The notes beneath the pieces were generated by a model. That model did no database searches. It was not told the origin of the DNA and was given only the letters and a program-made list of their open reading frames with translations. Below, piece after piece: positions 9,878-52,456 of a stretch of 52,456 nt of DNA (positions are counted from its first letter, which is position 1; each line of letters starts with the position of its first letter). Location of the stretch: the NCBI GenBank assembly GCA_017395105.1, contig JAFPWD010000011.1, positions 1 through 52,456 on the forward strand, written 5' to 3'. This DNA comes from Clostridia bacterium. Its GTDB lineage: Bacteria > Bacillota > Clostridia > Christensenellales > CAG-138. Made by a program: the position numbers and the translations under genes.

Positions 9878-9878
9878 T

Positions 9879-11213: not shown

Positions 11214-11237
11214 ATAAAGCGAAAACAGGAGTATCGT

Positions 11238-11951: not shown

Positions 11952-12010
11952 ACCCCATCATATCAAAACTGCAAAAACGAGAAATAACAGAAACGGAGGT
12001 TGATTAGATA

Positions 12011-13231: not shown

Positions 13232-16197
13232 TCACCACCGAAAAGCGCTTTGAAGCCGATATAGAATCCTTTTTCGTTTCGCCGGAGGGAGGCTACACCA
13301 GGACTACGGACAGGTACGATCCGAAGCTCGGCGTTTTTCCCGGCACGCTTATCAACTTTATCGAGCGCACTCAGCCTAAGGAGTGGGCGCGGTTCAAAAA
13401 TATGAATGCGGCCGATCCCGCCCAAAAGTTCTGCCTTGCGTTCAACAATGCCTGCGATATGGACGGCGTGCTCCATGTGCTGCGCCACGGCTTCAATCAT
13501 AGGGGCATAAGCTTCCGCGTTTGCTATTTTATGCCCGAATCGAGCCTCAATGAGACCGATGCGGCGCGGTATCGGGGAAATATCTTCAACTGCGTTCGCC
13601 AATGGCGGTATAGCGCGGAAAACAATAATTCCGTGGATATGCTGCTGGCGGTGAACGGCATTCCGCTTTTCGCCTTTGAGCTTAAAAACCAGTTCACGGG
13701 GCAGAGCGTTGAAAACGCAAAGAGCCAATGGAAAACCGATCGCGATCCGCGCGAGGCCTGCTTCCGCTTCAATCGGCGCATACTCGCGTATTTCTGCGTT
13801 GACCTCAGCGAAGCGTGGATGACCACCAAGCTCAACGGGGATAAAACCTATTTTCTGCCGTTCAACCAAGGCTCAAGCGGCGCGGGCAGGGACGGCGGCA
13901 AGGGCAACCCCGCCAACCCGAACGGTTATCCCACCGACTACCTTTGGAAAGAGGTTTTTCAGGCGGACAGCATGATGGATATCGTTCAGAAATTCATCAG
14001 CCTGCAGGGGGATAGGCTTATCTTCCCGCGCTTTCATCAGCTTGACGTGGTGCGAAAGCTTATTGCGGACGTTCGCAAAAACGGCGCGGGGCGAAACTAC
14101 CTTATTCAGCACAGCGCGGGCAGCGGCAAGTCCAATTCCATAGCGTGGACGGCGTATCGCCTTGCCTCGCTGCACGATGAGAATAATAAAGCGATATTTT
14201 CAAGCGTTATCGTTGTTACCGACAGAACGGTGCTCGATGCGCAGCTTCAAGCCACGATATCCGGCTTCGATCATCAGCTTGGGAGCGTTGAGACCATCGG
14301 CGAGGGCAAAAATTCGCAGAATCTGAAGCAGGCGATAAACGACGGCGTTCGAATTATCGTTACCACGCTGCAAAAGTTTCCCGTTATCTATGAGGAAGTG
14401 GATGCGGCGAACGGCAGAAATTATGCGATAATATGCGATGAAGCGCATTCTTCGCAAACGGGCTCAAGCGCACAAAAGCTCAAAACCGCGCTTGCCGATC
14501 TTGGCGATGCGCTCGAGGAATACGCGGAGATCGAGGGGCTTGCCGAGGAAAAGGTCGATCCGCAGGACAGGCTTGTGAAGGAGCTTATCGCGCACGGCAA
14601 GCATAAGAATCTTTCCTTCTTCGCCTTCACCGCCACGCCCAAGGATACCACGCTTGAAATGTTCGGCACTCCCGATGAAAGCGGGCAGTTTCACCCCTTC
14701 CATATTTACAGCATGCATCAGGCCATCGAGGAGGGCTTTATTCTCGATGTGCTTCAAAACTATATGACCTATAAAACCTGCTTCCGCATAGCCAAATCCA
14801 CCGAGGAGAATCCCGAAGTGCCGGTTTCGAGGGCAAGCAAGGTCATAAAAAAATATCAGCAGCTTCATCCGGAGAATATTCGCCAGAAATCCGAGATAAC
14901 GGTTGAAACCTTTATGACGACCACAAGAGCGAAGATAAACGGCAAGGGCAAGATGATGGTGGTTACCGCTTCGCGCCCCGCAGCGGTGCTGTATTTCAAG
15001 GAGATAAAGCGCTATGCCGCCGAGCAGGGGTATGCCGAGGTGAAGCCGATGGTCGCGTTCTCCGGCGAAGTGATCCACGATGACGAAGTCTACACCGAAT
15101 CCGGGCTGAATGTTCGCCCGGACGGAAGCCATATCCAGGAAACGCAGACGAAGCAGGAATTCCACGATAATTTCAATATTTTGATCGTTGCGGAGAAGTA
15201 TCAAACGGGCTTTGACGAGCCGCTGCTGCACACGATGATAGTGGACAAGAAGCTGCACGGCGTAAAGACCGTTCAAACGCTTTCGCGCCTTAACCGCACC
15301 TGCCCCGGCAAGAACGACACCTTTATTCTCGATTTTGCGAACGATCAGAAGGACGTTCAGGAGGATTTCCAGATATTCTATCACGAAACCTTCCTTGAGG
15401 AGGAGGTCAATACCGACCTGCTTTACAAGGTGCAGCGCGATCTTCACGATTTCGGCATCTATGACGAGCGCGATATTTCCGCTTTCTGTGATGTGTATTT
15501 CGAAAAGGGCGCGCAGGGAGCGAGCGCACAGGGCTTGCTCGCAAGCAGGCTGTTTCCCGCCGTGGAGCGTTATCAGCGCAAGGCGAGTGACGAAAGGTAT
15601 CAGATCCGCCGCACGATGCGCAATTTCTGCAAATGGTATCGCTATGTTTCTCAGATACTGAGAATGTTTGATGCGGAGATGCACAAGGAGTATGTGTATT
15701 GCTCGTTCCTCGTCGGTATGCTGCCCGAGGATGTTGTGAAAATGGCGGATATCGAAAAGATGCTCAAGCTTGAAATGTATAAGCTTGAAAAGACCTTTGA
15801 CGGCGATATTTCGCTTGGCGATGAAACAGGCATATACACGCCCGCCGAGCCGAAAACCAAAGCGCAGCCCGAACCAAAGGATCCGCTCGATCTGATAATC
15901 GAAAGGATAAACGAGAAGTATAAGGGCAATTTCACCGCCGCCGACCGCGTTATGATAAATGCGCTTGCGGATAAGCTTCGCGGCAACAAAAAGCTTGCGA
16001 ATATGGCGGCTTCGTCCGATCCGCAGATATTCACCGAAAGCATCTTCCCGCAGGCGTTCAGCGATGCCGCGCAGGATAGCTTTATGGAATCGCAGGAAAC
16101 CTATAGCTCGCTTTTCGAGGATAGGAGCAAGTATAACGCGATAATGAGCACGCTGGCGGAGATGATCTACCGCGAGATGCGCAGCGGGAAGAAGTGA
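13228..16197 (+). CDS. hsdR: Type I restriction-modification system, restriction (R) subunit
   Basis: This 989-residue HsdR has the expected order of domains. An N-terminal PD-(D/E)xK nuclease includes DMLLAVNGIPLFAFELKN (about 135-152). Then comes the SF2 translocase, with Walker A HSAGSGKSNS (about 294), DEAH box CDEAHSSQ (about 403), motif III FAFTATP (about 465) and motif VI QTLSRLNRT (about 685). A helical C-terminus binds the methylase core. It uses ATP to pull unmethylated DNA through the complex and cleaves at a distance. The start overlaps the AlbA_2 gene stop (ATGA). Length and motifs are complete, so the system should be able to restrict. Confidence 0.96.
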   Translation: MITTEKRFEADIESFFVSPEGGYTRTTDRYDPKLGVFPGTLINFIERTQPKEWARFKNMNAADPAQKFCLAFNNACDMDGVLHVLRHGFNHRGISFRVCYFMPESSLNETDAARYRGNIFNCVRQWRYSAENNNSVDMLLAVNGIPLFAFELKNQFTGQSVENAKSQWKTDRDPREACFRFNRRILAYFCVDLSEAWMTTKLNGDKTYFLPFNQGSSGAGRDGGKGNPANPNGYPTDYLWKEVFQADSMMDIVQKFISLQGDRLIFPRFHQLDVVRKLIADVRKNGAGRNYLIQHSAGSGKSNSIAWTAYRLASLHDENNKAIFSSVIVVTDRTVLDAQLQATISGFDHQLGSVETIGEGKNSQNLKQAINDGVRIIVTTLQKFPVIYEEVDAANGRNYAIICDEAHSSQTGSSAQKLKTALADLGDALEEYAEIEGLAEEKVDPQDRLVKELIAHGKHKNLSFFAFTATPKDTTLEMFGTPDESGQFHPFHIYSMHQAIEEGFILDVLQNYMTYKTCFRIAKSTEENPEVPVSRASKVIKKYQQLHPENIRQKSEITVETFMTTTRAKINGKGKMMVVTASRPAAVLYFKEIKRYAAEQGYAEVKPMVAFSGEVIHDDEVYTESGLNVRPDGSHIQETQTKQEFHDNFNILIVAEKYQTGFDEPLLHTMIVDKKLHGVKTVQTLSRLNRTCPGKNDTFILDFANDQKDVQEDFQIFYHETFLEEEVNTDLLYKVQRDLHDFGIYDERDISAFCDVYFEKGAQGASAQGLLASRLFPAVERYQRKASDERYQIRRTMRNFCKWYRYVSQILRMFDAEMHKEYVYCSFLVGMLPEDVVKMADIEKMLKLEMYKLEKTFDGDISLGDETGIYTPAEPKTKAQPEPKDPLDLIIERINEKYKGNFTAADRVMINALADKLRGNKKLANMAASSDPQIFTESIFPQAFSDAAQDSFMESQETYSSLFEDRSKYNAIMSTLAEMIYREMRSGKK

Positions 16198-16242
16198 GAG
16201 AAATAAGCACTCCTCATTATGCGCAAACTAAAGCAAGAATTC

Positions 16243-16288
16243 TTGACAGCATATTACGGAGATGCTAAAATGTCCATGATAGGACATT
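16243..16288 (+). promoter_or_regulatory. Promoter and palindromic operator of the AlbA_2 winged-helix regulator
   Basis: TTGACA (16243-16248) and TAAAAT (16266-16271) are 17 bp apart. AATGTCC (16269-16275) and GGACATT (16282-16288) are inverted arms with a 6-bp spacer, overlapping the -10 box and the expected transcription start, so a protein bound here would block initiation. The downstream gene probably encodes that protein. GGAGGTG follows before the ATG. Confidence 0.7.
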
Positions 16289-16301
16289 TGGAGGTGAGAA
16301 A

Positions 16302-17633
16302 ATGAACATCGGGCGCGAATCGGAGCTTGTGGAATTCAAAAAGACCACTTCGGAAACGAAGGAGGGAATTATTTCCATCGCAAGCATTCTGAATAAGCAC
16401 GGCAAGGGCGAGCTGTATTTCGGCGTTAGGGATAACGGCGAAGTTGTCGGCATTGAAATCGGCAAGGACACCGAGCGCAAGCTTTCGCGTGACATAAGCG
16501 ACGGCATCAAGCCCGCGATCTGGCATGAGATCACCACGAAGCACACAGACGACGGCAAGGCTTTTATAGAGGTGCAGTTTCGCGGCGATGATGCTCCGTA
16601 TGCAGCGTTTGGGCGGTACTATCAGCGCTTTGCGGATGAGGACAGGCAGATATCCGATGCGGAACTCGAACGACTTTTCAAGCAAAGGCGTACCGATTAT
16701 TCGGAATGGGAAAAGGCGGATTCCGATGAATCCATAAGCGAGGTTGACGAGCAGCTTCTCAGACGCATAATTGAAAACGGAAACGACAGCGGCAGGATAC
16801 GCTACGAATACTCCGATGCTGCGGCCATACTGAAAAAACTCGGTCTTTGCAATAATTCCGCAGATAAATTGACCAACGCAGGGCGCGTTCTGTTATCATC
16901 AAATAAGCCCGTGCTGCTGAAAACCGCCGTGTATGCCACGCCGACCAAGGATACCTTTATCAAACTCAACCATTTCGAGGGCAATATCTTCGAGTGCATT
17001 GATGAGGGTATTTCGTTCGTGCTTTCCAATATAGATTGGAACATCTGCATTTCGGGCGAGGCAAAGCGCACGGAAGAGCCCGAGATTCCGCAAAAGGCAA
17101 TCCGTGAAATGATCGTGAATGCCTTTGCGCACGGCTGCTATTACTCGAATACCACTTTTTCAATCGAAATCTTCAGCAACAAGGTTGTGATCTACAGCCC
17201 GGGCAGGTTCCCGGCGGGCTTCGTTCCGGAGGATTTTGCCTACAACGCCGCCGAGCCCATTATGCTGAATCCAAAGATTGTCAACGTGCTTTTCAAGGCA
17301 TCGGTTATTGAGTCCTTCGGTTCGGGCTTTGAACGCACCTTCTCCGCGTGCAGGGAATCCAAGGTGGAATACGATTATGAAAACACTCCGACCGGCTTCA
17401 AATTCATCTTTTTCCGCCGTCATGGACAGAAAAATGTCCATGATATGTCCAAGAGCGAAAGGGCGGTTTACGAGCTTCTCTGTGGCAACGACTGCCTCAC
17501 GATCAAGGAGCTTGCCAAGGCGATCTCCAAGAGCGAGAAAACTGTCTATCGTGCTATAAAAGCCTTGAAAGAAAAAGGCTTTATAGCAAGGGAGGGCAAC
17601 GATGCGAACGGGTATTGGAAGATATTGGAGTGA
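16302..17633 (+). CDS. AlbA_2-domain ATPase-like transcriptional regulator with C-terminal winged helix
   Basis: The 443-residue protein resembles the AlbA_2/HATPase_c_4 regulators often labelled RecG-like, without any helicase. Residues about 1-125 are the AlbA_2 domain (ESELVEFKKTTSETKEG at 6-22, then GELYFGVRDNGEVVGIE). The centre includes EMIVNAFAHGCYY (about 268), a GHKL-like N box, and SFGSGFERTF (about 340). The last 60 residues form a winged helix (TIKELAKAISKSEKTVYRAI). It likely represses its own promoter at the TGTCC palindrome, and a second TGTCC palindrome lies inside its own coding region (17420-17443). It follows hsdR by about 100 bp but has its own promoter. A link to controlling the RM operon is possible but unproven. 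Confidence 0.82.
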   Translation: MNIGRESELVEFKKTTSETKEGIISIASILNKHGKGELYFGVRDNGEVVGIEIGKDTERKLSRDISDGIKPAIWHEITTKHTDDGKAFIEVQFRGDDAPYAAFGRYYQRFADEDRQISDAELERLFKQRRTDYSEWEKADSDESISEVDEQLLRRIIENGNDSGRIRYEYSDAAAILKKLGLCNNSADKLTNAGRVLLSSNKPVLLKTAVYATPTKDTFIKLNHFEGNIFECIDEGISFVLSNIDWNICISGEAKRTEEPEIPQKAIREMIVNAFAHGCYYSNTTFSIEIFSNKVVIYSPGRFPAGFVPEDFAYNAAEPIMLNPKIVNVLFKASVIESFGSGFERTFSACRESKVEYDYENTPTGFKFIFFRRHGQKNVHDMSKSERAVYELLCGNDCLTIKELAKAISKSEKTVYRAIKALKEKGFIAREGNDANGYWKILE

Positions 17634-20861: not shown

Positions 20862-22622
20862 CTATTTTGAATTGCAAGATGGAATCTCCTTTTTTAGAAC
20901 TTCACGATAATATATGCGAGCTAACTCTTTCGCTCGTTCTGCTATCATTGACTCATCCCACCTGTCATGCTTTTCTATAAAGTCCTTTACAAACCTATAA
21001 GTTGACTCTTCATATATTTTACGTTTATCGGAATAGACTTGGTTGCCTGCATCGTCATTGAGCCGTTTCTCCAAGAGAATCAAGTTCCCAATATTTAGAG
21101 CGACAACACCCTCCGTTTCTGGTACTATATGCTCAATGGAACCATCATCCGCGAAAACATCTGTATCCGAATAATAGCAGTTGAGTTTATTAATAGCATA
21201 TTTCGCTTTTACATTAGAAGCCGTTTCTTTTTTAGTAAAACTTAGGGAAATAAACTTTTCGCTAAAGCTATCAAACGAAGGAAAAATCTCTCCAAGCTTT
21301 TTAATAAGCTGAGTTTCAATAATACCATTCGCCTCATTTTTCTGCGAAGCGTTTCGGAGAGCAACTGCAAACTTTGAGAATATTGCTTCAATCCTATTGG
21401 TACCTCTTGATAAAACAGCATTATAAGCAAAGTGAAAGTTCTCTAGTTCCAAAACTGTTTTTTTCAATTTTGAAAAGTCAATGATTCCACGCTTCTTTGC
21501 ATCAAACAGCGCCAATAGTGCGATGCGCACTTGTACTACATTAAAATAGTTGTTTATACACTTTAGGCTTTGTACAATTCCAAAGTACTCCTTTCTATCC
21601 TCATAATCCTCGCGTTTTGGATTGACCAGTTTCATATAGAGTTTTGCATTTTCCAACAACTCCTTCAAGAATTCTTTGCAGCTTTCTTTTTCCGTTATTT
21701 CTTTGCAAAACTCGTCATACAGCTTATCTTTTTGAGTGTTTCTATACTTAGACAACCAAAAATGCCGATAGAATTGTGCAAACTCTACGCTTTCCCTGCC
21801 TGAATGAAGTTCCTTCTTTATGTCTTTCCAAGTTTCTTCAGCAAAATCAGCAGGTTCCTGCTCTTTTAGAATCTCAAATATTCTATTCTTTATTAAGTCA
21901 GTATAACCTAGTCTTTTACCCTTAGCATTTAATATCTCAAATATCCTATATGCTTGATCCTTCTCTTTTGTCGAAATAGCAATAAACATGGAGTTAAGAA
22001 CCTGATCTCTAACAGCTTTCAAAATATCAACTTCCGACAATTCTCCAACCTTTTCGCTGCTATTGGATATTTTTAATGCCTTCTTTAGTTTAGATTCGTT
22101 CAAGTACTCTTTAAAATAATCATATGTAGCCTTTATATTAGCCTCTTCTTCCGTTACAGGTTCCACTCCTTGATATGAGGATTCCTTCTCCTGAATGACA
22201 TATGAAAAGAACGGATAGCTCGATTTGCTTTTAAGAATCCTCACAGGCTCCCCGTCATCATTTTCAGTCATAATATAATTGTAAAGCTGCTTAGCTAAGT
22301 TGCCCTTCTTTAACTCAACAAATCTGTCGTACATGGCCGAAAATAGAATAGTTATTGTTGTTAGTCGTTGTTGTCCATCAACAACATCGATATCTCCAGT
22401 TCCTTCTGTAAAGTCACCAATGAACAGCATCGTGCCGATAAAATACTGATCAGCAGAAATAGTGCCTGTTTCGTCTATCACAAGATTGCCAAGCATATCT
22501 TCGATAAACTCCCGATAGTGTTTCTGATCCCAAGAATACTCTCGCTGAAATCTAGGGATAATAAATGTCCGTTTAGATCCTAATAAGTCACGAATTGTTT
22601 TATCTTGTGGTTTAATATTCAC
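20862..22622 (-). CDS. DUF262/DUF1524 (GmrSD-like) modification-dependent nuclease
   Basis: The start is GTG at 22622, with AGGAGG seven bases upstream. The 586-residue protein combines a GmrS-like DUF262 domain (about 1-230) and a GmrD-like DUF1524 HNH domain at the end. DUF262 signatures are FIIPRFQREYSW (20-31) and DVVDGQQRLTT (79-89), the latter a ParB-like nucleotide-binding motif. The HNH part has IEHIVPE with His498, then an LGNL-like NIGNLILLEKRLN and a final helical region. The E. coli GmrSD relative uses NTPs to cut phage DNA with modified (glucosylated) cytosines. A similar anti-phage role is inferred here. It stands alone and closes the defence island next to rpoD. Confidence 0.88.
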   Translation of the reverse strand: MNIKPQDKTIRDLLGSKRTFIIPRFQREYSWDQKHYREFIEDMLGNLVIDETGTISADQYFIGTMLFIGDFTEGTGDIDVVDGQQRLTTITILFSAMYDRFVELKKGNLAKQLYNYIMTENDDGEPVRILKSKSSYPFFSYVIQEKESSYQGVEPVTEEEANIKATYDYFKEYLNESKLKKALKISNSSEKVGELSEVDILKAVRDQVLNSMFIAISTKEKDQAYRIFEILNAKGKRLGYTDLIKNRIFEILKEQEPADFAEETWKDIKKELHSGRESVEFAQFYRHFWLSKYRNTQKDKLYDEFCKEITEKESCKEFLKELLENAKLYMKLVNPKREDYEDRKEYFGIVQSLKCINNYFNVVQVRIALLALFDAKKRGIIDFSKLKKTVLELENFHFAYNAVLSRGTNRIEAIFSKFAVALRNASQKNEANGIIETQLIKKLGEIFPSFDSFSEKFISLSFTKKETASNVKAKYAINKLNCYYSDTDVFADDGSIEHIVPETEGVVALNIGNLILLEKRLNDDAGNQVYSDKRKIYEESTYRFVKDFIEKHDRWDESMIAERAKELARIYYREVLKKEIPSCNSK

Positions 22623-38947: not shown

Positions 38948-38976
38948 TTGAAACGCATCCGATATTGTGGTATAAT
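38948..38976 (+). promoter_or_regulatory. Promoter of the cohesin / TlpA-dockerin / pth-dsdA unit
   Basis: TTGAAA (38948-38953) and TATAAT (38971-38976) with a 17-bp spacer. The leader to the ATG at 39067 is about 85 bases and includes AAGGAG. Confidence 0.7.
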
Positions 38977-39066: not shown

Positions 39067-40098
39067 ATGAAACGCATCTTTTCACTCGCAGCGGCTGTGA
39101 TCCTTGCCGCGCTTACAGTTCTTGCGCCCGTTGCCCACGCGAGCAGCGGCTCCGTTGTTTTTTCGATGAACAACGTTGAAAACGTATCCCCCGGCGACAG
39201 CTTCACCGTTACGCTCAGCATCTCCGGCGATTATCAGGCGCACGGCATGCACCTTTCCGTTGAATACGATCCCAACTCCATGACGCTTGAGAGCTGCGAC
39301 CAGGGCGGCTATCTCGATGCGCTCAGGGCACTCAACGGCTTCCCTCTTCTTGATGCGGAGACCCTTGCCCCCGAGGGCAAGATCAAGCTCGGCGTTATTA
39401 TGCCCTCAACTGCGGCGACCGGCTCCGGCGAAGTTCTCGTGATGAGATTCCACGTCAACGAGGGCGTTACTGTCAATCAGCAGGTGATAATGGTCATCCA
39501 CGAGTTCATCTATATGCCCATTGGCCAAAAGACCGGCACCGACATTCCCTTCAGCACCCATAACTCCATAATAACCCTCAGGGGCGGCGCCACTCCCGAA
39601 GCGGGCTACAACGAGGGCGACGACGGCATTGGCAACAATATCTCCTCTTCGCCCAGCCAGCCCCCCGAGCCCACGCCCGGCGGCAGCACCAACACCTCCA
39701 TGCCCATCGCTACCGTTGCGCCCCGTGTAACGGATGATCGCGGCAACACCCCCGCTCCCGGCACCGCCAGAGAGACCGCCGAGCCCGGCACCACTCCGCA
39801 AGCCGCTTCCGAAAGCGAGCAGCCCTATGCGGCGATCACCGCATCCCCCGACGGAACAGTGACCGCATCCCCCGAAACGAGCAGCGAGCCCGCCGATGCT
39901 TCCGAAGCCCCCGCAGGCACCGAAACCGCCGATCCGAGCGCGACCGACAAGCCCGTCGATGAGAACCGCGAAGAAGAGAGCGGCGACGAGAAGAAGGGCG
40001 GCAAGGCTTCCCCCGTTCCGTACATCGTTGTCGGCGCGGCGGCCGTTGGCGCAGTCCTGAGCGCGGTTGCGGTAATCAACAAGAAAAAGCGCGGATGA
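39067..40098 (+). CDS. Membrane-anchored cohesin-like surface protein
   Basis: The 343-residue protein has a signal peptide (about 1-25). One cohesin-type beta domain follows (about 28-172), with VENVSPGDSFTVTLSISGDY, MHLSVEYDPNSMTLESCDQG and IKLGVIMPSTAATGSGEVLV, the usual cohesin strand pattern. A Pro/Thr/Ser/Glu-rich linker (about 173-315) comes next, and a single membrane helix (VPYIVVGAAAVGAVLSAVAV) with a positively charged KKKRG tail ends it. That places one cohesin outside the cell on a flexible stalk. Cohesins bind dockerins; the next gene and two genes at the left end of the window encode dockerins. A different function for the beta domain is possible, since cohesin-like folds also occur elsewhere. 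Confidence 0.78.
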   Translation: MKRIFSLAAAVILAALTVLAPVAHASSGSVVFSMNNVENVSPGDSFTVTLSISGDYQAHGMHLSVEYDPNSMTLESCDQGGYLDALRALNGFPLLDAETLAPEGKIKLGVIMPSTAATGSGEVLVMRFHVNEGVTVNQQVIMVIHEFIYMPIGQKTGTDIPFSTHNSIITLRGGATPEAGYNEGDDGIGNNISSSPSQPPEPTPGGSTNTSMPIATVAPRVTDDRGNTPAPGTARETAEPGTTPQAASESEQPYAAITASPDGTVTASPETSSEPADASEAPAGTETADPSATDKPVDENREEESGDEKKGGKASPVPYIVVGAAAVGAVLSAVAVINKKKRG

Positions 40099-40155
40099 TC
40101 GTGCCCCCTCCCTTGGAGGATCAAACGAAATATCCATTAAACGAGGTCTGTTAAG

Positions 40156-41136
40156 ATGAAAAAGCACATGAATACCCGTATAAACGCTTCGGCTCTTAAA
40201 ACCGCGATCACTGCCGCTCTGCTTGTTTTTGCGCTCGCATTCACCCTCTGCTTTTCCGCTTTGGCCCAATCGGGCAATGAATACAACGTCGCTCCCGCCG
40301 ACTTTGAGGTCGTCGGGAGCGACGTTTCCGCCATGTCCACCACGGATATCCACGGCGCAGGCGTAACAGGCTCCGTTTTCTCCCAAAAGAGCATAACTGT
40401 GCTGCACTATTTCTCCACTTGGAGTCCGGACTGCATTCGCGAGCTCGGCTATATGCAGCATGCGCTCAACACGTTCGGCTCCGGCGAGATCGCTGTATAC
40501 GGGCTTTTGTATGAGGACCCTTCAAGCACTCCCGAAAGCTGCGATGCGCTCTTTGAGCAGCTCGGCTTGAGCTACCGCTGCCTGCGCCTCGACAGCGTGC
40601 TCTCTCAGCTCGTTGGCGTTTACCCCTACATTCCGCAAACCTTCCTTGTGAATTCAAACGGAATAGTTGTGGATCATTTCCCCGCGACCTTCGACAGCGC
40701 GGCACAGCTCGAGGCGCTGATCGAGCATGAGCTCAGCCATCCCTCCCTCTTCCATGAGGTGCGCTTCATGGATGGGCTCACCGGCGAGCTGATACAGGAG
40801 GTGAACGTTGCAAACGGCGGCAGCACGGTGCCTCCCACCCCGCCCGTGCATGAGGATTACGAGTTCTCCCATTGGAGCGGAAGCTATGAAAACGTTACCG
40901 AGGATCGCGTTGTGACCGCGGTTTACGTCCTCGTTTTCGATCACTATCTGCCCGGCGACGTCGATCAGGACGGCAGACTCACAACCGCAGATGCACTTAT
41001 AGTGCTTCGCCATGTCATCGGCACCGATTGGAACTCAAACGTTCTGCTGTATGGCGACTTGGACGACGATGGGCTCGCAACCATAGTCGATGCCGTGCTG
41101 TTACTCAGGATCGCTCTCGGTCTCACAAACGCATGA
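40156..41136 (+). CDS. Secreted TlpA-like protein with altered active site, beta-repeat and dockerin
   Basis: The 326 residues contain a signal peptide (about 1-37), a thioredoxin-fold domain (about 45-205), one InlB-type beta repeat (about 208-262: VRFMDGLTGELIQEVNVANG through FSHWSGSYENVT) and a type I dockerin (267-326). The dockerin has two loops (GDVDQDGRLTTADAL, GDLDDDGLATIVDAV). At the redox site the sequence is TWSPDC: the first active-site Cys is Ser90 while Cys93 remains, and a Pro in YIPQT fits the cis-Pro loop. It therefore cannot work as an ordinary dithiol oxidoreductase. It follows the cohesin gene by 57 bp and overlaps the pth-dsdA start by ATGA. A binding or chaperone role is an inference. 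Confidence 0.85.
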   Translation: MKKHMNTRINASALKTAITAALLVFALAFTLCFSALAQSGNEYNVAPADFEVVGSDVSAMSTTDIHGAGVTGSVFSQKSITVLHYFSTWSPDCIRELGYMQHALNTFGSGEIAVYGLLYEDPSSTPESCDALFEQLGLSYRCLRLDSVLSQLVGVYPYIPQTFLVNSNGIVVDHFPATFDSAAQLEALIEHELSHPSLFHEVRFMDGLTGELIQEVNVANGGSTVPPTPPVHEDYEFSHWSGSYENVTEDRVVTAVYVLVFDHYLPGDVDQDGRLTTADALIVLRHVIGTDWNSNVLLYGDLDDDGLATIVDAVLLLRIALGLTNA

Positions 41137-43001
41137 AGATAATTCTCGGTCTCGGAAATCCCGGCAGGGAATACGAAAAAACAAGGCATAACGTGGGCTT
41201 TATGGCGCTCGACGAGCTTGCCGAAAAACTCGGCATACGCATAGAGCGCAGGGGCTTTCGCTGCATATACGGCGAGGGACGAATCGGCACCGAGCGCGTT
41301 GTGCTTGCAAAGCCCGAAACCTATATGAACGCCTCGGGCTTCGCCGCCGTGGAGCTAATCAACTGGTTCAAGCCCGATATCGAGGATCTGACCGTTATTT
41401 TCGACGATATTGACCTTCCCTGCGGCGCGCTGCGCATACGCGCAAACGGCTCCGCAGGCACGCATAACGGAATGCGCAGCATAGTGGAGCAGCTTGGAAG
41501 CGAGGATTTCCCGCGCATCCGCATCGGCATCGGCAAGCCAGAGCACGGGCTTATAGACCACGTGCTCGGCGTTCCGAACGAGGAGGACAGAAAAGCGATC
41601 GAATCTGCTCTTCCGTCCGCTGCCGAGGCCGCCATGCTCATCGTGCGCGGAAAGATCGACGAAGCGCAAACCAAATTCAACTACAAGCCGCCCAAGAAGG
41701 AAAAGCCCCCGAGGGAGCCGCGAGAAAAGGGCGCGCCTCCCGTTAAGGCATTCATCGGCAGGGAGGTTTTCTATCAAAACAGAAGGCTCACTCCCTGTAA
41801 GGACGTGCTCCCGAGCCTTCCCTATTCGTTTAAGGACGTGCGCGATGCCGAAAGGCGGCTTGCGCGCTTTGCGCCGCTCATAGCAAGGCTCTTCCCCGAA
41901 ACCGAGCAGGAGGGCGGCATCATAGAATCGCCTCTGCGCTCCGCTCCAAGGCTCAAGCAGGCCGTTGAGAGGGAGAGCGCAAGCTCCGATATCGGCAGGC
42001 TGCTCATAAAGCTTGATTCCGACCTGCCCATTGCGGGCTCGGTCAAAGCGCGCGGCGGCATCTACGAGGTGCTTTTTCACACCGAAAAGCTTGCGCTCGA
42101 GCATGGGCTCATTTCCGGGGCGGAGGACTATTCAAGGCTTGCCGAGCACCGCGATTTCTTCTCGAATTACACCGTGCAGGTCGGCTCAACCGGCAACCTC
42201 GGCCTCAGCATAGGCATATCGGCATCCGCCATCGGTTTTAAAACCGTCGTCCACATGAGCGCAGATGCCAAGGAATGGAAAAAGGCGCTTCTTCGCAGCC
42301 ACGGCGTGACCGTTATCGAATATGACGGCGACTATACCGAGGCAGTAAACAGAGGCCGCGCGCTTTCGGATGCGGACGAAAAAAGCTATTTTGTGGACGA
42401 CGAAAACTCGCTCGCCCTCTTCATGGGCTATGCTGTGGCGGCGCTCAGGCTCAAAAGGCAGCTTGACGAGCGCGGAATAACCGTTGATGACGAGCATCCT
42501 CTATTCGTGTACCTGCCCTGCGGAGTTGGCGGAGCGCCGGGCGGCATAACCTTCGGCCTCAAGCTCATCTTCGGGGATAACGCGCATTGCTTCTTCATCG
42601 AGCCCGTGAATGCGCCCTGCATGCTGACCGCGCTTATCAGCGGCGAATGCGAGCATATCTCAAAATACGGCTTGAGCGGAAAAACCGATGCGGACGGGCT
42701 TGCCGTAGGCACCGCCTCCAAGCTCGTTTTCGATACGGTCGGCAGGCTCATAGACGGCGAGATCACATTTGCCGACGAACGCCTTGCGCCGCTTGTGCGG
42801 CTCGTTTACGATTCGGAGCAGCTTTTCATCGAGCCCTCCTCGGCAGGTGCGCTGCACGGTCTTTCGGAGCTTGTAAAGGCCAATAAATTCGGAAAGCTCT
42901 CCGCCGATATTTCAGCACGCTTCGCCCTCTCCACCCATATCCTTTGGGCAACGGGCGGCGGTCTCGTTCCCGATGAGGAGCGAAAAAAATATCTCTTGTG
43001 A
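41133..43001 (+). CDS. Fusion of peptidyl-tRNA hydrolase and D-serine dehydratase
   Basis: The start ATG at 41133 overlaps the previous stop. The 622-residue chain opens with a complete bacterial Pth (about 1-185): GLGNPGREYEKTRHNVGF with Asn9 and His19, ETYMNASG with Asn66, VIFDDIDLPCG with Asp92, and TAGTHNGM-like AGTHNGMRS with Asn112. A Lys/Pro-rich linker (about 185-205) leads to a DsdA-type PLP enzyme (about 207-622). GGIIESPL is followed by the PLP Lys305 in PIAGSVKARGGIYEVL, and the glycine loop VQVGSTGNLGLSIG binds phosphate. Pth frees peptides from stalled peptidyl-tRNA; DsdA makes pyruvate and ammonia from D-serine. Both seem complete. No stop codon or start lies between them. I do not know another example. 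Confidence 0.9.
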   Translation: MKIILGLGNPGREYEKTRHNVGFMALDELAEKLGIRIERRGFRCIYGEGRIGTERVVLAKPETYMNASGFAAVELINWFKPDIEDLTVIFDDIDLPCGALRIRANGSAGTHNGMRSIVEQLGSEDFPRIRIGIGKPEHGLIDHVLGVPNEEDRKAIESALPSAAEAAMLIVRGKIDEAQTKFNYKPPKKEKPPREPREKGAPPVKAFIGREVFYQNRRLTPCKDVLPSLPYSFKDVRDAERRLARFAPLIARLFPETEQEGGIIESPLRSAPRLKQAVERESASSDIGRLLIKLDSDLPIAGSVKARGGIYEVLFHTEKLALEHGLISGAEDYSRLAEHRDFFSNYTVQVGSTGNLGLSIGISASAIGFKTVVHMSADAKEWKKALLRSHGVTVIEYDGDYTEAVNRGRALSDADEKSYFVDDENSLALFMGYAVAALRLKRQLDERGITVDDEHPLFVYLPCGVGGAPGGITFGLKLIFGDNAHCFFIEPVNAPCMLTALISGECEHISKYGLSGKTDADGLAVGTASKLVFDTVGRLIDGEITFADERLAPLVRLVYDSEQLFIEPSSAGALHGLSELVKANKFGKLSADISARFALSTHILWATGGGLVPDEERKKYLL

Positions 43002-47167: not shown

Positions 47168-50100
47168 ATGAAGATCCGCAAACTCCTTGCAGCCGCTCTC
47201 GTGCTCATCATGGTATTCGCGGCGATCCCCGTCCTCTCCCTCGCAGAAGGCGTTCGCACCGTTACCTATGAAGCAAATCAGATGAGCAAGCTCGACCGCG
47301 TATGGGCACAGCTCGACGCAGCCGAAGAAAAAGCACTTCTCTCAGCATCTTCCCGCGATAAAAAGCAGGAAATTATCTCCGCCGTTTATGAAGCGGCGCT
47401 GTCCGTTAAGGAAGTTGATAAGGACAGCTTTGACAACTTCTTTGAGGATGGTTTCTCCTTCACCGTTGACGGTATGTACTGTGCATACAACTACCGCCTC
47501 AGGCATGAGATCGGCAGGATCGCGAATCCCGCTCCCCAGCCCGAGGGCATCATCGTTGAGGATTACTCCAATGGCAAGACCGTGGACACCAAGGCTCCCA
47601 ACTCCCCCAACGTTCTTCTTGTAGCCCCTTACTATGGTCTTGACAATGCGTTCACCGATCAGTATCAGAGGGAAGCCCGCTCCATCGCAAACACCACCGG
47701 CGGTGTCTACACCCTTATTCAGACCGCGAACGCTACCGGCCCCGCCATCGCTCAGAACTACACCGACAAGGGCGTTGTTATCTATGACTCCCACGGTGTT
47801 CAGCAGGGCACCTCTTCCTATCTCTGCCTCACCACCAACTCCGGCATCACCGCCAACGACTACAACAACGGTTGGGCGATCAACGCCGGCGGCGGCGAAG
47901 CTTGGATCGACGGCCGTTACATTGAAAACCACGTCAACGGCAATCTCGGCAACTGCTTCGTTTGGATGGCTATCTGCCAGGGCATGAAGCGCGGCGGTCA
48001 GGGCACCACCGGCTACGCACTTCTCCGTGCAGGTGCGGCGGCTGTTTACGGCTACTCCCAGAACGTTTCCTTCACCGGCGACTACCGGTATGAAGCGACC
48101 TTCTGGAACGAGATGAAGAACGGCGCAACCGTTCGCGATGCTATCAGCGTTATGAAGAACACCCACGGGGTTCCCGATCCCGTTGGCAACAGCCGTGCAT
48201 ACCCCATCGTTATGAGCGATGTTGATGCCTTCCCCGCAAACCCCGATTCCAACCAGGCCGTTAACTGCACCTGGACTCTCATCGACGACGGCAACGTGGC
48301 TCCCTCCGTTCAGAGCGTTACCCTCAACAGCGTAAGCGTAAACGTTGGCCAGACCAAGAGGGCTACCCTCACCGTTACCCCCGACAATGCCGACTACACC
48401 GTAACTTGGGACACCTACAACTCCGCCATCGCGACCGTAGACTCCAACGGCAACGTACGCGGCGTTTCCGCAGGCACCACCACCCTTTACGTTACCGTTC
48501 GCGACACCACGACCGGTCTCTCCTACAACCGCACCGCTACCATCACCGTTACCGGCAGCAACCCCACCCCCACCCCCACTCCCACCGCGGCTCCCGGCAC
48601 CAGCTATGAGCGCGTTTACTCCATTGAGAACGGCGGCAGGTACATCCTCGTTGCAGAAGGCTCCGTTTCCGGCAGCACCGGCTATGCCGTGGGCGGCAAC
48701 ACCGTTTCCGGCGGCCGTTACCTCAACCCCGTTTCCATCTCCGTCAGCAGCTCCAGCGCGACTGTAAGCTCCGGCGTTGATGCCATCACCTGGACCGCAG
48801 AAGGCAACTCCACCAACGGCTACACCTTCCGCAATGTTGGCAACAGCAAGTACATGGGTCTTGACTCCGCTCAGTACCTCTATCCCTCCAACACCTCCGT
48901 TGCTTGGAAGTACACCGGCTCCGGCGCTCTTGACAACCAGGTCGATACCGACGGTTACTACTACCTCTCCTACAGCTCCGGCAAGTACACCACCTCCAAG
49001 AACAGCGGCGCTATCCGCCTCTACAAGGTAGCTTCCGGCACCGTTAACCCCACCCCCACCGCAACTCCCACCGCAACTCCCACTGCGGCTCCCAACCTCT
49101 ACACCGTAACCTTCAAGGATTGGGACGGCACCGTTCTTAAGACTCAGCAGGTCGCCTACGGCGGATACGCAACTCCCCCCGCTGCTCCTTCCCGCCCCGG
49201 CTACACCTTCACCGGTTGGGACAGGTCCTACAGCTACATCACCGCCAACACCGTGATCACCGCGCTGTACACCCAGAACTACAACCCCACCCCCACCGCA
49301 ACTCCCACCGCTGCTCCCACCTCCGCGCCCGGCACCACCTATGAGCGCGTTTACTCCATCGAGAACGGCGGCAGGTACATCCTCGTTGCAGAAGGCTCCG
49401 TTTCCGGCAGCACCGGCTACGCGGTAGGCAACACCGCTTACTCCGGCAGCCGTCTGCTCAACGCTGTTTCCGTTAACGTTACCAGCTACAGCGCAACCGT
49501 AAGCTCCAATGTTGATGCGATCACCTGGGTAGCTTCCGGCAGCTCCACCAACGGCTGGACCTTCAGGAACGTTGCAAACAACAAGTACATGGGCCTCGAC
49601 TCCGCTCAGTACCTCTATCCCTCCAACACCTCCGTTGCCTGGAAGCTCACCAACTCCAACGCTCTGGACAATCAGGTGGATACCGATGGTTACTACTACC
49701 TTGCGTACAGCTCCGGCAAGTACACCACCTCCAAGACCTCGGGCGCTATCCGCATCTACAAGGTTTCCGACGGCAGCTACTTCTCCGAGCCCACTGCAGC
49801 TCCCACCGCTGCTCCCACCGCTGCTCCCACTGCAGCTCCCAACCCCGGCGGCGTACGCTATGAGCGCGTTTACTCCATCACCAGCGGCGACAAGTACGTT
49901 TTCGTTGCCGACAGCTCCGTTTCCGGCAGCACCGGCTATGCGGTAGGCAACAGCACCGTTTCCAACAACCGTTACCTTGCTCCCGTTCAGGTAACCGTTA
50001 ACTCCAACGGCACTCTGAACATTCCCGCAGGTGTGAACGCAAACGCCATCACTTGGACTGCAAGCGGCAACTCCACCAGCGGCTACAGCTTCAAGAACGT

Positions 50101-50305
50101 TGCAAACGGCAAGTACATGGGCCTTGACTCCGCTCAGTACCTCTATCCCTCCAACACCTCCGTTGCTTGGAAGTTCACCTCTTCCTACGGTCTCGACAAT
50201 CAGGTTGACACCGACGGTTACTTCTTCCTCTCCTACAGCACCGGCAGGTACACCACCTCCAAGACCTCTTCCATGATCTGCATCTACAAGGTGGTCGAGG
50301 GCTAA
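47168..50305 (+). CDS. Large secreted protein with clan CD-like cysteine peptidase domain and repeats
   Basis: The 1045 residues start with a signal peptide (about 1-26) and a helical propeptide-like part (about 27-140). Residues about 145-375 resemble a caspase/gingipain/clostripain-fold (clan CD) peptidase: VVIYDSHG with His209 and CFVWMAICQGM with Cys270, in the correct order and both after hydrophobic strands. A Big_2 Ig-like domain follows (about 380-463). After it come Thr/Pro linkers and three copies of a 140-150-residue module starting YERVYSI(E/T) (about 480-625, 722-870, 896-1045), with KYMGLDSAQYLYPSNTSVAW in each. An InlB-type beta repeat (about 643-705) lies between copies one and two. 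No dockerin or cell-wall anchor is present. The specificity is unknown; Ser/Thr/Asn-rich codons are uniform, fitting strong expression. Confidence 0.8.
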   Translation: MKIRKLLAAALVLIMVFAAIPVLSLAEGVRTVTYEANQMSKLDRVWAQLDAAEEKALLSASSRDKKQEIISAVYEAALSVKEVDKDSFDNFFEDGFSFTVDGMYCAYNYRLRHEIGRIANPAPQPEGIIVEDYSNGKTVDTKAPNSPNVLLVAPYYGLDNAFTDQYQREARSIANTTGGVYTLIQTANATGPAIAQNYTDKGVVIYDSHGVQQGTSSYLCLTTNSGITANDYNNGWAINAGGGEAWIDGRYIENHVNGNLGNCFVWMAICQGMKRGGQGTTGYALLRAGAAAVYGYSQNVSFTGDYRYEATFWNEMKNGATVRDAISVMKNTHGVPDPVGNSRAYPIVMSDVDAFPANPDSNQAVNCTWTLIDDGNVAPSVQSVTLNSVSVNVGQTKRATLTVTPDNADYTVTWDTYNSAIATVDSNGNVRGVSAGTTTLYVTVRDTTTGLSYNRTATITVTGSNPTPTPTPTAAPGTSYERVYSIENGGRYILVAEGSVSGSTGYAVGGNTVSGGRYLNPVSISVSSSSATVSSGVDAITWTAEGNSTNGYTFRNVGNSKYMGLDSAQYLYPSNTSVAWKYTGSGALDNQVDTDGYYYLSYSSGKYTTSKNSGAIRLYKVASGTVNPTPTATPTATPTAAPNLYTVTFKDWDGTVLKTQQVAYGGYATPPAAPSRPGYTFTGWDRSYSYITANTVITALYTQNYNPTPTATPTAAPTSAPGTTYERVYSIENGGRYILVAEGSVSGSTGYAVGNTAYSGSRLLNAVSVNVTSYSATVSSNVDAITWVASGSSTNGWTFRNVANNKYMGLDSAQYLYPSNTSVAWKLTNSNALDNQVDTDGYYYLAYSSGKYTTSKTSGAIRIYKVSDGSYFSEPTAAPTAAPTAAPTAAPNPGGVRYERVYSITSGDKYVFVADSSVSGSTGYAVGNSTVSNNRYLAPVQVTVNSNGTLNIPAGVNANAITWTASGNSTSGYSFKNVANGKYMGLDSAQYLYPSNTSVAWKFTSSYGLDNQVDTDGYFFLSYSTGRYTTSKTSSMICIYKVVEG

Positions 50306-50361: not shown

Positions 50362-50716
50362 TCCATTTGCGCGATTTTTCCTATTTTGAAAGATTCTGTG
50401 ATTATTTTTTTCTTTTTTGTAAAGTATTTCAGTGTTTAAAGATATTTTCGATAATACATTTTCTTCTTTTTCTCTTTCATTTAGCATGTTGCAAAATACG
50501 CATATAATTTTTGCCGCTTTTGAATATTACGAAACTAAAAATATATTATTAATACGCCCTAAAATTCGTTGACAATGGTATATTAAAATGATATTCTACA
50601 GTTGCAGGCAGTGCCGCCAAGTGAGTTCGAAGCAACTTTTCGGTTCGTGATTGTATTATTCGAGCAAGCAAAAAGCACATGCCGAGCAAAAAAATTATTT
50701 TATGGAGGTCTACACT
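50362..50716 (+). promoter_or_regulatory. AT-rich upstream region and promoter of the second peptidase paralogue
   Basis: TTGACA (50569-50574) and TATTCT (50592-50597) with a 17-bp spacer match the promoter of the first copy in both boxes and in the flanking ATGATAT and TTGCAG words. The leader ends in TGGAGGTCT before the ATG at 50717. No gene is seen in the interval. Confidence 0.65.
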
Positions 50717-52456
50717 ATGAAGATCCGCAAACTCCTCGCAGCCGCTCTCGTGCTCATCATGGTATTCGCGGCGATCCCCGTTCTCTCCCTTGCAGAAGGC
50801 GTTCGCACCGTTACCTATGAAGCAAAGCAGATGAGCAAGCTCGACCGCGTATGGGCACAGCTCGACGCAGCCGAAGAAAAAGCACTTCTCTCAGCATCTT
50901 CCCGCGATAAAAAGCAGGAAATTATCTCCGCCGTTTATGAAGCGGCGCTGGGCATCAAAGAGGTTGACAAAGACAGCTTTGACAACTTCTGCAAGGACGG
51001 CTTCTCCTTCACCGTTGACGGCATGTACAATGCGTACAACTACCGCCTCAGGCATGAGATCAACAGGATCGAGAATCCCGCTCCCCAGCCCGAGGGCATC
51101 ATCGTTGAGGATTACTCCAACGGCAAGCCCGTGGACACCAAGGCTCCCAACTCCCCCAACGTTCTTCTCGTAGCACCTTACTATGGCATTGACGGCAGCT
51201 TCACCAACCAGTATAAGACCGAAGCTCAGTCCATCGCAAACGCCACCGGCGGCACTTACACCCTTATCCAGACCGCGAATGCGACCGGTCCCGCAATCGC
51301 TCAGAACTACACCAACAAGGGCGTTGTTATTTACGACTCCCACGGCGTTCAGCAGGGCACCTCTTCCTATCTCTGTCTCACCACCAACAGCGGCATCACC
51401 TCCAACGACTACAACAACGGTTGGGCGGTCAGGAGCGGCGACGAAGCATTCATCGACGGCCGTTACATTGAAAACCACGTCAACGGCAATCTCGGCAACT
51501 GCTTCGTTTGGATGGCTATCTGCGAAGGCATGAAGCGCGGCGGCCAGGGCACCACCGGTTCCGCTCTGCTCCGTGCAGGTGCGGCGGCTGTTTACGGCTA
51601 CTCCCAGAGCGTTTCCTTCCGCGGCGACTACCTCTATGAGGCTTCCTTCTGGGGCGAAATGAAGCAGGGCAAGACCGTTGCTCAGGCTATTCAGACCATG
51701 AAGAACACCGTTGGCGTAAGCGATCCTTACACCAACCCCACCGCATGGCCCATTCTTATGAGCGCCACCGATGCTTTCCCCGCAAACCCCGATGGCAGGC
51801 AGAACGTTACCTGTAACTGGACTCTCCTCGGCGGCGGCGGTGGCGGCGGCAATGCTATTCAGAGCGTTACCCTTAACAGCGTAAACGTTGCGGTCGGTTC
51901 CACCCAGAGGGCAACCCTCACCGTTACCCCCAGCAACGCAAGCTACACCACCACCTGGAGCACTTATAACTCCTCTATCGCAACCGTAGACACCAGCGGC
52001 TATGTACGCGGTGTTTCCGCGGGCACCACCACCCTTTCCGCAACCGTTCGTGACAACACTACCGGCCAGTCCTACAACCGCACTGCCACCATCACCGTTA
52101 CCGGCGGCACCACCCCCACCGCAGCTCCCGGCACCAGCTATGAGCGCGTTTACTCCATCGAAAACGGCGGCAGATACATCATCGTTGCCGAGAATTCCGT
52201 ATCCGGCAGCACCGGCTACGCTGTAGGCAACAGCACCGTTTCCGGCGGCCGTTACCTCAACCCCGTTGCCATCTCCGTCAGCAGCTCCAGCGCAAGCGTA
52301 AGCTCCAATGCCGACGCTATCACTTGGGTTGCTTCCGGTAACTCCTCCAGCGGCTACACCTTCCGCAATGTTGCCAACAACAAGTACATGGGCCTCGATT
52401 CCGCTCAGTACCTCTATCCCTCCAACTCCGGCGTTGCTTGGAAGTACACCGGCTCC
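50717..52456 (+). CDS. Second clan CD-like peptidase paralogue, cut by the window end
   Basis: The visible 580 residues repeat the architecture of 47168-50305: signal peptide, propeptide, peptidase domain with VVIYDSHG (His) and CFVWMAICEGM (Cys), a Gly-rich hinge (LLGGGGGGGN), a Big_2 domain, a short Pro/Thr linker, and the first YERVYSIENGG module. The reading frame is still open at base 52456, so the 3' end lies outside. The first ~230 bases of coding sequence are almost identical to the first gene, while the later parts diverge more. This suggests a tandem duplication followed by local gene conversion. Confidence 0.82.
   Translation, partial: MKIRKLLAAALVLIMVFAAIPVLSLAEGVRTVTYEAKQMSKLDRVWAQLDAAEEKALLSASSRDKKQEIISAVYEAALGIKEVDKDSFDNFCKDGFSFTVDGMYNAYNYRLRHEINRIENPAPQPEGIIVEDYSNGKPVDTKAPNSPNVLLVAPYYGIDGSFTNQYKTEAQSIANATGGTYTLIQTANATGPAIAQNYTNKGVVIYDSHGVQQGTSSYLCLTTNSGITSNDYNNGWAVRSGDEAFIDGRYIENHVNGNLGNCFVWMAICEGMKRGGQGTTGSALLRAGAAAVYGYSQSVSFRGDYLYEASFWGEMKQGKTVAQAIQTMKNTVGVSDPYTNPTAWPILMSATDAFPANPDGRQNVTCNWTLLGGGGGGGNAIQSVTLNSVNVAVGSTQRATLTVTPSNASYTTTWSTYNSSIATVDTSGYVRGVSAGTTTLSATVRDNTTGQSYNRTATITVTGGTTPTAAPGTSYERVYSIENGGRYIIVAENSVSGSTGYAVGNSTVSGGRYLNPVAISVSSSSASVSSNADAITWVASGNSSSGYTFRNVANNKYMGLDSAQYLYPSNSGVAWKYTGS

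Follow-up and report, generated by a model that had tools for sequence, protein, structure and literature searches.

The closest described relatives of the system considered here are built from cohesins, which fold as a nine-stranded jelly-roll, and from dockerins. In the cellulosome, the dockerin-borne cargo consists mostly of plant-wall hydrolases. Dockerin-borne peptidases, leucine-rich repeat (LRR) proteins, serpins and transglutaminases are also reported from Ruminococcus flavefaciens (PMC5301203). The mucinolysome of Limousia, described in 2026, is directed at mucin and involves dockerin-bearing carbohydrate-active enzymes (CAZymes) and peptidases; the same paper reports cohesins and dockerins together in 4333 metagenome-assembled genomes (MAGs) from the human gut (PMC12997984). 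A survey of 2024 lists Lachnoclostridium sp. MSJ-17 and Limihaloglobus sulfuriphilus as scaffoldin-containing and presumably non-cellulolytic (PMC11557425). The present work deals with a stretch of 52,456 nucleotides from a Clostridia bacterium (contig JAFPWD010000011.1 of assembly GCA_017395105.1), called the window hereafter, and more precisely with two adjacent genes of its forward strand, one encoding a membrane-anchored protein with a single cohesin (39067–40098) and the other a TlpA-like protein ending in a dockerin (40156–41136). The window is contig 10 of the source assembly (58 contigs, 1.90 Mb, 68% complete). The best explanation, to which a probability of roughly 0.55 can be given as a whole, is that this pair may form the conserved core of a surface cohesin-dockerin system devoted to proteins and not to polysaccharides.

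The first gene encodes a protein of 343 amino acids (aa) in which Pfam recognizes a cohesin domain (PF00963, residues 32–139; 30.6 bits for a cut-off of 24.1, E 4.6e-7). A cohesin profile of 42 rows built for the genus covers residues 27–177 (4.8e-60), a match that is partly circular because the protein is one of these rows. Compared with solved sequences, the same profile retrieves 18 distinct entries at E <= 1e-3, 15 being named cohesin, scaffoldin or anchoring protein and 3 being named for enzymes; the two best hits both correspond to a cellulosomal scaffolding protein (3.5e-11 and 3.9e-11). Around this domain, the protein displays a signal-like stretch at its N-terminus (recognized by eye), a linker of 139 residues rich in A, P, T and E and a C-terminal hydrophobic helix (mean hydropathy of 2.42 from residue 319) followed by KKKRG. 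This arrangement is shared by the orthologs: the hydrophobic helix and the basic tail without PxTG are alike in all ten full-length anchors, window protein included, and none of the ten shows a.P.TG sorting motif in its last 60 residues. As far as sequence comparison can establish it, the assignment of 39067–40098 as a cohesin on a membrane anchor is thus confirmed.

The second gene encodes a protein of 326 aa with a TlpA-like domain, a repeat resembling the InlB type and a C-terminal type I dockerin. AhpC-TSA and Dockerin_1 are both above their Pfam cut-offs (PF00404, 24.8 bits for 22.9), and two calcium loops are matched in the dockerin. The repeat was recognized by eye, Pfam being silent for this open reading frame (ORF); Flg_new is reported by Pfam in the longer TlpA-dockerin protein of a relative. 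The initial annotation, which placed a membrane-anchored cohesin beside a TlpA-like dockerin protein and listed two further dockerin genes at 1337 and 4020, is borne out for the strands and coordinates of these four ORFs as well as for the domains and C-terminal helix of the pair.

Its proposal of a redox role fares differently for the two kinds of TlpA protein. In the family of the 40156 protein, the second cysteine of the CXXC motif is kept in the 11 genomes of the genus (source genome included), and the first one in none of them, being replaced by serine in ten and by tyrosine in one. The motif thus reads WSPDC, WSAEC, WSADC or WSPEC (SxxC) in ten genomes and WYDVC in the last. The PQTF stretch, which holds the cis-proline of the TlpA-type fold, is invariant. 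Since the first cysteine is lost in all 11 members, the 40156 protein is not an ordinary thiol reductase, and this candidate function was discarded. The protein would probably be a binding or monothiol partner; a putative peroxiredoxin-like role for the single cysteine was also considered. The positive side of the redox proposal rests on the other TlpA-dockerin proteins and on an iron-sulfur gene cluster found in relatives (see below): the six remaining TlpA-dockerin proteins of the source genome all have WC.PC. The SxxC form also occurs outside the pair, as WSGNC in one TlpA-dockerin protein belonging to this cluster in genome G003.

The pair is conserved throughout the genus. Orthologs of the dockerin gene are found in all ten other genomes (E <= 1.9e-55), and the cohesin gene lies directly upstream on the same contig in ten of the 11, source included. 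In G009, whose TlpA part is 97% identical, the two genes are split between contigs: the cohesin is cut off by the end of C118, and the start of the dockerin gene lies close to the end of C49. The cohesin of the pair is detected by Pfam at E <= 1e-3 in nine of the 11 genomes. In the gene maps, which are mechanical ORF lists whose unscanned neighbours are named by sequence likeness, the frames downstream correspond to peptidyl-tRNA hydrolase/PALP in ten genomes and to a phosphoglucosamine-mutase-like protein in nine, these families having been scanned in the window only. Furthermore, in a FastTree phylogeny of 96 cohesin domains, the window-type cohesins make up one branch of 11 sequences with a local support of 0.94. 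One of the relatives matched by the anchor protein is a Clostridia MAG from sheep omasum.

Beyond the genus, proteins related to 40156 (E <= 1e-40) occur in 18 of the 103 genomes of the family, which comprises 26 genera: the 11 of the source genus, G013 (genus g4), G031 (g15) and five genomes of g23. In G013, an SxxC TlpA-dockerin protein (WSGPC) and a cohesin-membrane protein are encoded in one gene run, separated by a WCGPC-bearing TlpA protein whose C-terminus is hydrophobic, and the flanking genes differ from those of the source genus. The six proteins of g15 and g23 retain CGPC; the DNA fetched around their genes, in part as short stretches, showed no cohesin gene. Cohesins as such are widespread, being detected at E <= 1e-10 in 50 of the 103 genomes and in 11 of the 26 genera. 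In genus g19, for instance, a single-cohesin protein recurs in a conserved place (L284, L285, L286).

The source genome encodes many more cohesins and dockerins than the window does. Pfam finds cohesins at 15 places, 14 of them above the cut-off, in four proteins: the window anchor, a protein of 1860 aa on contig C43 with ten places (nine stretches in the protein scan), a protein of 1257 aa on contig C9 with three places (three stretches in the protein scan) as well as Cleaved_Adhesin domains, and a second C9 protein of 436 aa with one place at 13.1 bits, below the Pfam cut-off. This weak cohesin is recovered with an E of 1.3e-32 by a first genus profile built without it. Dockerin_1 is found at 51 places, 49 marked as above the cut-off, in 50 distinct ORFs, Pfam detecting none in any of the four cohesin proteins. 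The initial annotation had imagined a small surface complex held on one scaffold; with four cohesin proteins in the genome, this view had to be abandoned. The C43 protein and the larger C9 protein are multi-cohesin scaffoldins of the kind known from cellulosomes. Both end with TPPTG or APPTG, a helix and RRKED or RKKED, which is the form of a sortase signal; the two small cohesin proteins do not end in this way. A sortase match is present in all 11 genomes of the genus.

The second C9 protein is, like the window protein, a membrane anchor with a single cohesin, and its gene stands directly upstream of a subtilase-dockerin gene (L041:235-4233). The same arrangement is seen on contig C31 of G010 (L353:2743-9952), where a further subtilase-dockerin gene follows.

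This abundance raises the question of which dockerin binds which cohesin. The dockerin proteins at 1337 and 4020 may bind the 1860-aa, the 1257-aa or the second-anchor protein, since these exist. More generally, the dockerins of the window could all bind the scaffoldins with ten and three cohesins, the single cohesin having another partner such as the dockerins of an adaptor scaffoldin. The presence of two scaffoldins with sortase-type tails is in favour of this alternative, as are the separate branch formed by the window-type cohesins and a protein of G010 (L294:1473-5252) that combines C-type lectin domains, Flg_new/InlB-type repeats, two cohesins and two dockerins, likely an adaptor scaffoldin. 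The strict adjacency of the cohesin and dockerin genes and the lack of any Pfam dockerin in the four cohesin proteins of the source genome argue against it, and it is considered unlikely.

The recognition positions of the dockerins were also compared. Position 10 is I or V in 43 of the 69 repeats of the source genome and mostly V, I or T in G008; position 11 is A in 34 of 69 repeats of the source genome and in 14 of 34 in G008, where it is the commonest residue, and G007 differs. Since the dockerins of the window are like the common class of the source genome, these two positions did not separate partners.

A second alternative is that the window cohesin is a generic one-site receptor for any dockerin protein, its adjacency to the TlpA gene being merely an inherited order. 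In G008 (95% complete), the cohesin of the pair is the only one found by Pfam or by the genus profile, yet 25 dockerin ORFs are present, and positions 10 and 11 of its dockerins are much as in the source genome (G007 differing at 11). A single anchor may thus serve many cargos, unless repeat-rich scaffoldins, which may be missing from the G008 assembly, were lost during assembly. Against such a generic role, the pairing of a cohesin-membrane protein with an SxxC TlpA-dockerin protein recurs in a second genus among other neighbours, and the second anchor is paired with a subtilase-dockerin. This alternative appears rather doubtful, although it deserves more credit than the one in which the scaffoldins are the partners.

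The cargo of the dockerins bears on the function of the system. Pfam was run on 49 of the 50 dockerin ORFs of the source genome (46 at E <= 1e-3 and three window ORFs at E <= 0.1; the one omitted is a 66-aa fragment). Above the cut-offs, the scan recovered Peptidase_S8 in five, redoxin/AhpC-TSA (TlpA) in seven, Cleaved_Adhesin in six, CHAP in one, LRR_4 in seven, Big_2 in seven and Cthe_2159 in one. Not a single catalytic domain of a glycoside hydrolase (GH) was found in these 49 ORFs. Five Cleaved_Adhesin-dockerin genes and one LRR-dockerin gene stand in a row on contig C16 (L042, 22000-40320).

Three relatives that are 91–96% complete (G007, G008 and G010) yielded 95 dockerin ORFs, 85 of which are homologous, outside their last 70 residues, to a member of the source dockerin set. 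The ten others and six long ORFs were scanned with Pfam, which revealed CAP, transglutaminase core, CotH, S8, lectin C together with cohesins and dockerins, and VWA, and no GH in these 16. Two more were scanned later, and the other 77 were judged by their best homolog alone, which may miss an extra domain. In G010, 56 ORFs were recovered from 63 dockerin places, six places lying outside the set. Thus, neither the dockerin-borne plant-wall glycoside hydrolases that characterize cellulosomes nor the dockerin-bearing mucin-glycan CAZymes that characterize the mucinolysome were recognized in the 49 source and 95 relative ORFs, the Pfam scans giving no GH catalytic family. A search for GH48 was negative in the 11 genomes of the genus; it is given no weight, as no control genome gave a match either.

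These results bear on the possibility that the system is an ordinary cellulosome whose hydrolases were missed in an assembly 68% complete. The multi-cohesin scaffoldins and the many dockerins would fit such a view. Against it stands the lack of any recognized GH catalytic domain in the 49 source ORFs scanned and in the 95 ORFs of the more complete relatives (77 of the latter being judged by homolog only), so that an ordinary cellulosome was rejected as highly improbable. The initial annotation, which had proposed a non-cellulosomal system carrying a protease and thiol proteins and had named a full cellulosome as the finding that would overturn it, is supported on this point, genome-wide and in relatives: large scaffoldins exist, and no cellulosome cargo was found.

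A different view of the same cargo is that the system serves adhesion or signalling, the subtilases maturing adhesins and the thiol proteins folding them, and that nutrition is not its purpose. Among the source dockerin proteins, enzyme domains are no more frequent than Cleaved_Adhesin, LRR and Big_2 domains, and VWA and lectin domains occur in G010. On the other hand, the dockerin proteins of G008 include subtilases with PA and fn3_5 domains, a layout known from large nutritional proteases, and TlpA-dockerin genes have genes of ferredoxin-reducing oxoacid oxidoreductases beside them. This view seems unlikely.

Those oxidoreductase genes are one of two gene neighbourhoods that may connect the TlpA-dockerin proteins with an electron supply. 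On contig C36 of the source genome, TlpA-dockerin genes follow genes of a 2-oxoacid:ferredoxin oxidoreductase (VorB being above its own cut-off), and like genes occupy the same place, by sequence likeness, in G003, G004, G006 and G010. The other is a cluster present in nine of the 11 genomes of the genus, in which a dockerin protein, a TlpA lipoprotein (lipobox GCAHPWR or alike), a Fer4_5 protein and a secreted membrane protein of about 400 aa are encoded in this order; it is referred to below as the relay cluster. The dockerin protein has both TlpA and dockerin domains in eight genomes, and its TlpA part lies beyond the contig end in G008. Pfam scans of eight genomes located Fer4_5 beside TlpA-type dockerin genes in G001, G005, G006, G008, G010 and G013, and elsewhere in G000 and G007; for G002, G003, G004 and G009, the cluster was assigned by BLAST to the G005 Fer4_5 protein (75–92% identity). 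Overall, this protein is 70–92% identical to the G005 copy in eight other genomes of the genus and 55% identical in G013. The relay lipoprotein of G002 reads in two overlapping frames.

The Fer4_5 domain itself scores 74 bits for a cut-off of 22. With TIGR02163 (NapH/MauN), the protein obtains 55.1 bits (E 7.8e-15) for a curated cut-off of 213, so that it is related to this family and not a member of it. The secreted, membrane-anchored protein of about 400 aa (L341:8350-9549 and homologs) stands beside the NapH-like gene in nine genomes of the genus and in G013, and has no Pfam or NCBIfam match. In G013, the gene run that holds the cohesin-membrane protein and the SxxC TlpA-dockerin protein continues with a TlpA lipoprotein and then with a membrane protein having DUF5684 and Fer4_5. 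This gene neighbourhood suggests that the relay cluster could supply electrons to thiol proteins docked at the surface, the CXXC TlpA-dockerin proteins being kept reduced from the cell.

Taken together, these observations allow a working scheme for the preferred reading, a surface system for proteins. The single-cohesin protein would act as a one-site receptor, with its C-terminal helix in the membrane and its flexible linker carrying the cohesin through the wall; the secreted SxxC protein would dock on the neighbouring cohesin through its calcium-loop dockerin. The scaffoldins with sortase-type tails, presumably held by the wall, would collect dockerin-bearing subtilases, CXXC TlpA proteins, gingipain-type Cleaved_Adhesin proteins and LRR proteins. 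The adhesin and LRR modules may hold the protein substrate or other surfaces, while the CXXC TlpA proteins would reduce disulfides and the subtilases would cut the opened protein, the resulting peptides feeding amino-acid fermentation. The thiol electrons would pass from ferredoxin to the NapH-like iron-sulfur membrane protein and then to the TlpA lipoprotein. A more elaborate version joins all these steps in an electron-fed surface proteolysis: oxidation of 2-oxoacids derived from amino acids would reduce ferredoxin, and the electrons would cross the membrane through the NapH-like protein and reach the TlpA-dockerin proteins by way of the lipoprotein. Kept reduced, these proteins would open disulfide-locked food proteins for dockerin-borne subtilases sharing their scaffolds, and the window pair would be the membrane-proximal hinge that hands thiols from relay to scaffold. 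This version is tentative, and its odds are well below even.

Several observations weigh against a core pair in a system for proteins. Synteny over 11 related genomes amounts mostly to one inherited event, and Pfam missed the cohesin of the pair in G002 and G004, where it was assigned by position and by 52–54% identity to the window domain. The second anchor is below the Pfam cut-off in G010 (20.8 bits) as in the source genome, and no dockerin gene stands beside the single cohesins of g19 in the three loci read. Concerning the thiol part, the 40156 protein itself lacks the first cysteine. The window pair is not beside the relay cluster, the link being seen in G013 only. A relay cluster that includes dockerin proteins is seen neither in the source genome nor in G007, where Fer4_5 and TlpA genes are clustered without any dockerin; it is present in G009, a sister of the source genome that is 88% complete. 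As for the cargo, the CHAP-dockerin protein matches an RGI_lyase beta-sheet domain and ChitinaseA_N above the cut-off, no single stretch passing alone; the Cthe_2159 domain of another dockerin protein is a carbohydrate-binding one, and one Cleaved_Adhesin protein has CBM_6 and CBM60 matches below the cut-off. Finally, it is hard to assign a part in protein degradation to many of the dockerin proteins (LRR, Big_2 and long ones without Pfam match).

The window contains a second dockerin unit, which had been described in the initial annotation as a subtilase-dockerin gene followed by a gene for a TlpA-dockerin protein with an intact CXXC, and the Pfam domains found above the cut-offs agree with this. 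The former (1337–3973, forward strand) encodes a secreted protein of 878 aa with Peptidase_S8 (5e-47) and a C-terminal dockerin (Dockerin_1, 2.3e-8, 34.6 bits), one calcium loop of which is matched by the strict pattern. The latter (4020–4793, forward strand) encodes a protein of 257 aa with WCGPC and a C-terminal dockerin (1.3e-9, 38.6 bits, two calcium loops matched). Redoxin (8.7e-9, 35.8 bits for a cut-off of 26.6), AhpC-TSA, Thioredoxin and Dockerin_1 are all above their cut-offs in this protein, which has both the active site and the redoxin match expected of TlpA/ResA. Both genes probably encode members of the same cohesin-dockerin system as the pair. In agreement with what had been annotated, Pfam detected no glycoside hydrolase in 24 ORFs of the window, the smaller ORFs lying outside the scan.

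Other features of the window surround these genes. A promoter-like site (TTGAAA-17-TATAAT, with TG before the second hexamer) lies upstream of the cohesin gene at 38948–38976 on the forward strand; it has 11 of 12 consensus matches, and is weak evidence, the scan giving 2 sites in the region and 1.2 in shuffles. Downstream, a forward-strand gene encodes a peptidyl-tRNA hydrolase joined to a pyridoxal-phosphate (PALP) enzyme (41133–43001, from Pfam and the ORF). Its ATG shares nucleotides with the stop codon of the preceding dockerin gene (ATGA), so that the two may be co-transcribed; this gene is outside the docking system. In G008 the two parts are adjacent ORFs, and in the nine other genomes of the genus where the frame was seen, it is a single one. 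Between the two dockerin units lies what looks like a defence island, made up of type I restriction-modification genes (HsdM, HsdS, HsdR) with two Schlafen/AlbA_2 proteins among them (8123–17630) and of a GmrSD-type restriction protein (20865–22622). Two long Big_2 ORFs (47168–50305 and 50651–52456), the second running off the contig end, have no dockerin match at E <= 0.1.

If the preferred reading holds, this would be a full-scale use of the cohesin-dockerin plug, with 50 dockerin ORFs in a single incomplete genome and no GH catalytic domain on the scanned cargo; the cellulosome would then be one application of a general kit for surface assembly. The genus belongs to gut Clostridia, and cellulosome-type parts would have been fitted in it to proteases, thiol proteins and adhesins. 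Were the relay reading correct, electrons delivered through the membrane would here feed a scaffolded enzyme system outside the cell, which would offer gut bacteria a plausible means of attacking feed protein rich in disulfides. Among the papers listed in literature searches by title and abstract opening, none dealt with a system of this size without dockerin-borne GH, or with dockerin-TlpA proteins beside a NapH-like relay.

With the cellulosomes of Acetivibrio (Clostridium) thermocellum and R. flavefaciens, the system shares type I cohesins and dockerins, multi-cohesin scaffoldins and surface anchoring, but no scanned dockerin ORF has a GH catalytic domain here. In Clostridium perfringens, the X82-type cohesin sits in larger hydrolases, whereas the window cohesin is carried by a bare membrane anchor. 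These single-cohesin (X82) proteins are otherwise alike in being non-cellulosomal, with one cohesin each and dockerin partners (cited in PMC12997984). The likeness to the mucinolysome extends to gut anaerobes, several scaffoldins, some dockerin-bearing peptidases and a target other than cellulose; however, what defines the mucinolysome is its dockerin-bearing CAZymes for mucin glycans, as many as 22 per genome, none of which was found here, and the word thioredoxin is absent from the main text of its description (PMC12997984). The strain MSJ-17 also has three single-cohesin proteins, two of them with C-terminal membrane helices, and up to 39 dockerin proteins. Nevertheless, no scaffoldin of MSJ-17 or L. 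sulfuriphilus carries more than two cohesins, and both genomes still encode a single dockerin-borne GH for plant biomass; the passages of the survey devoted to them describe no cluster of TlpA-dockerin and NapH-like genes (PMC11557425). The last comparison is with the TlpA/ResA/DsbE oxidoreductases that work with NapH/MauN proteins, which the cluster of the relatives resembles by its CXXC TlpA and its Fer4_5/NapH-like protein. In contrast to these, the thiol proteins described here carry dockerins that would allow their docking at the surface, and the one encoded by the window pair has an SxxC motif.

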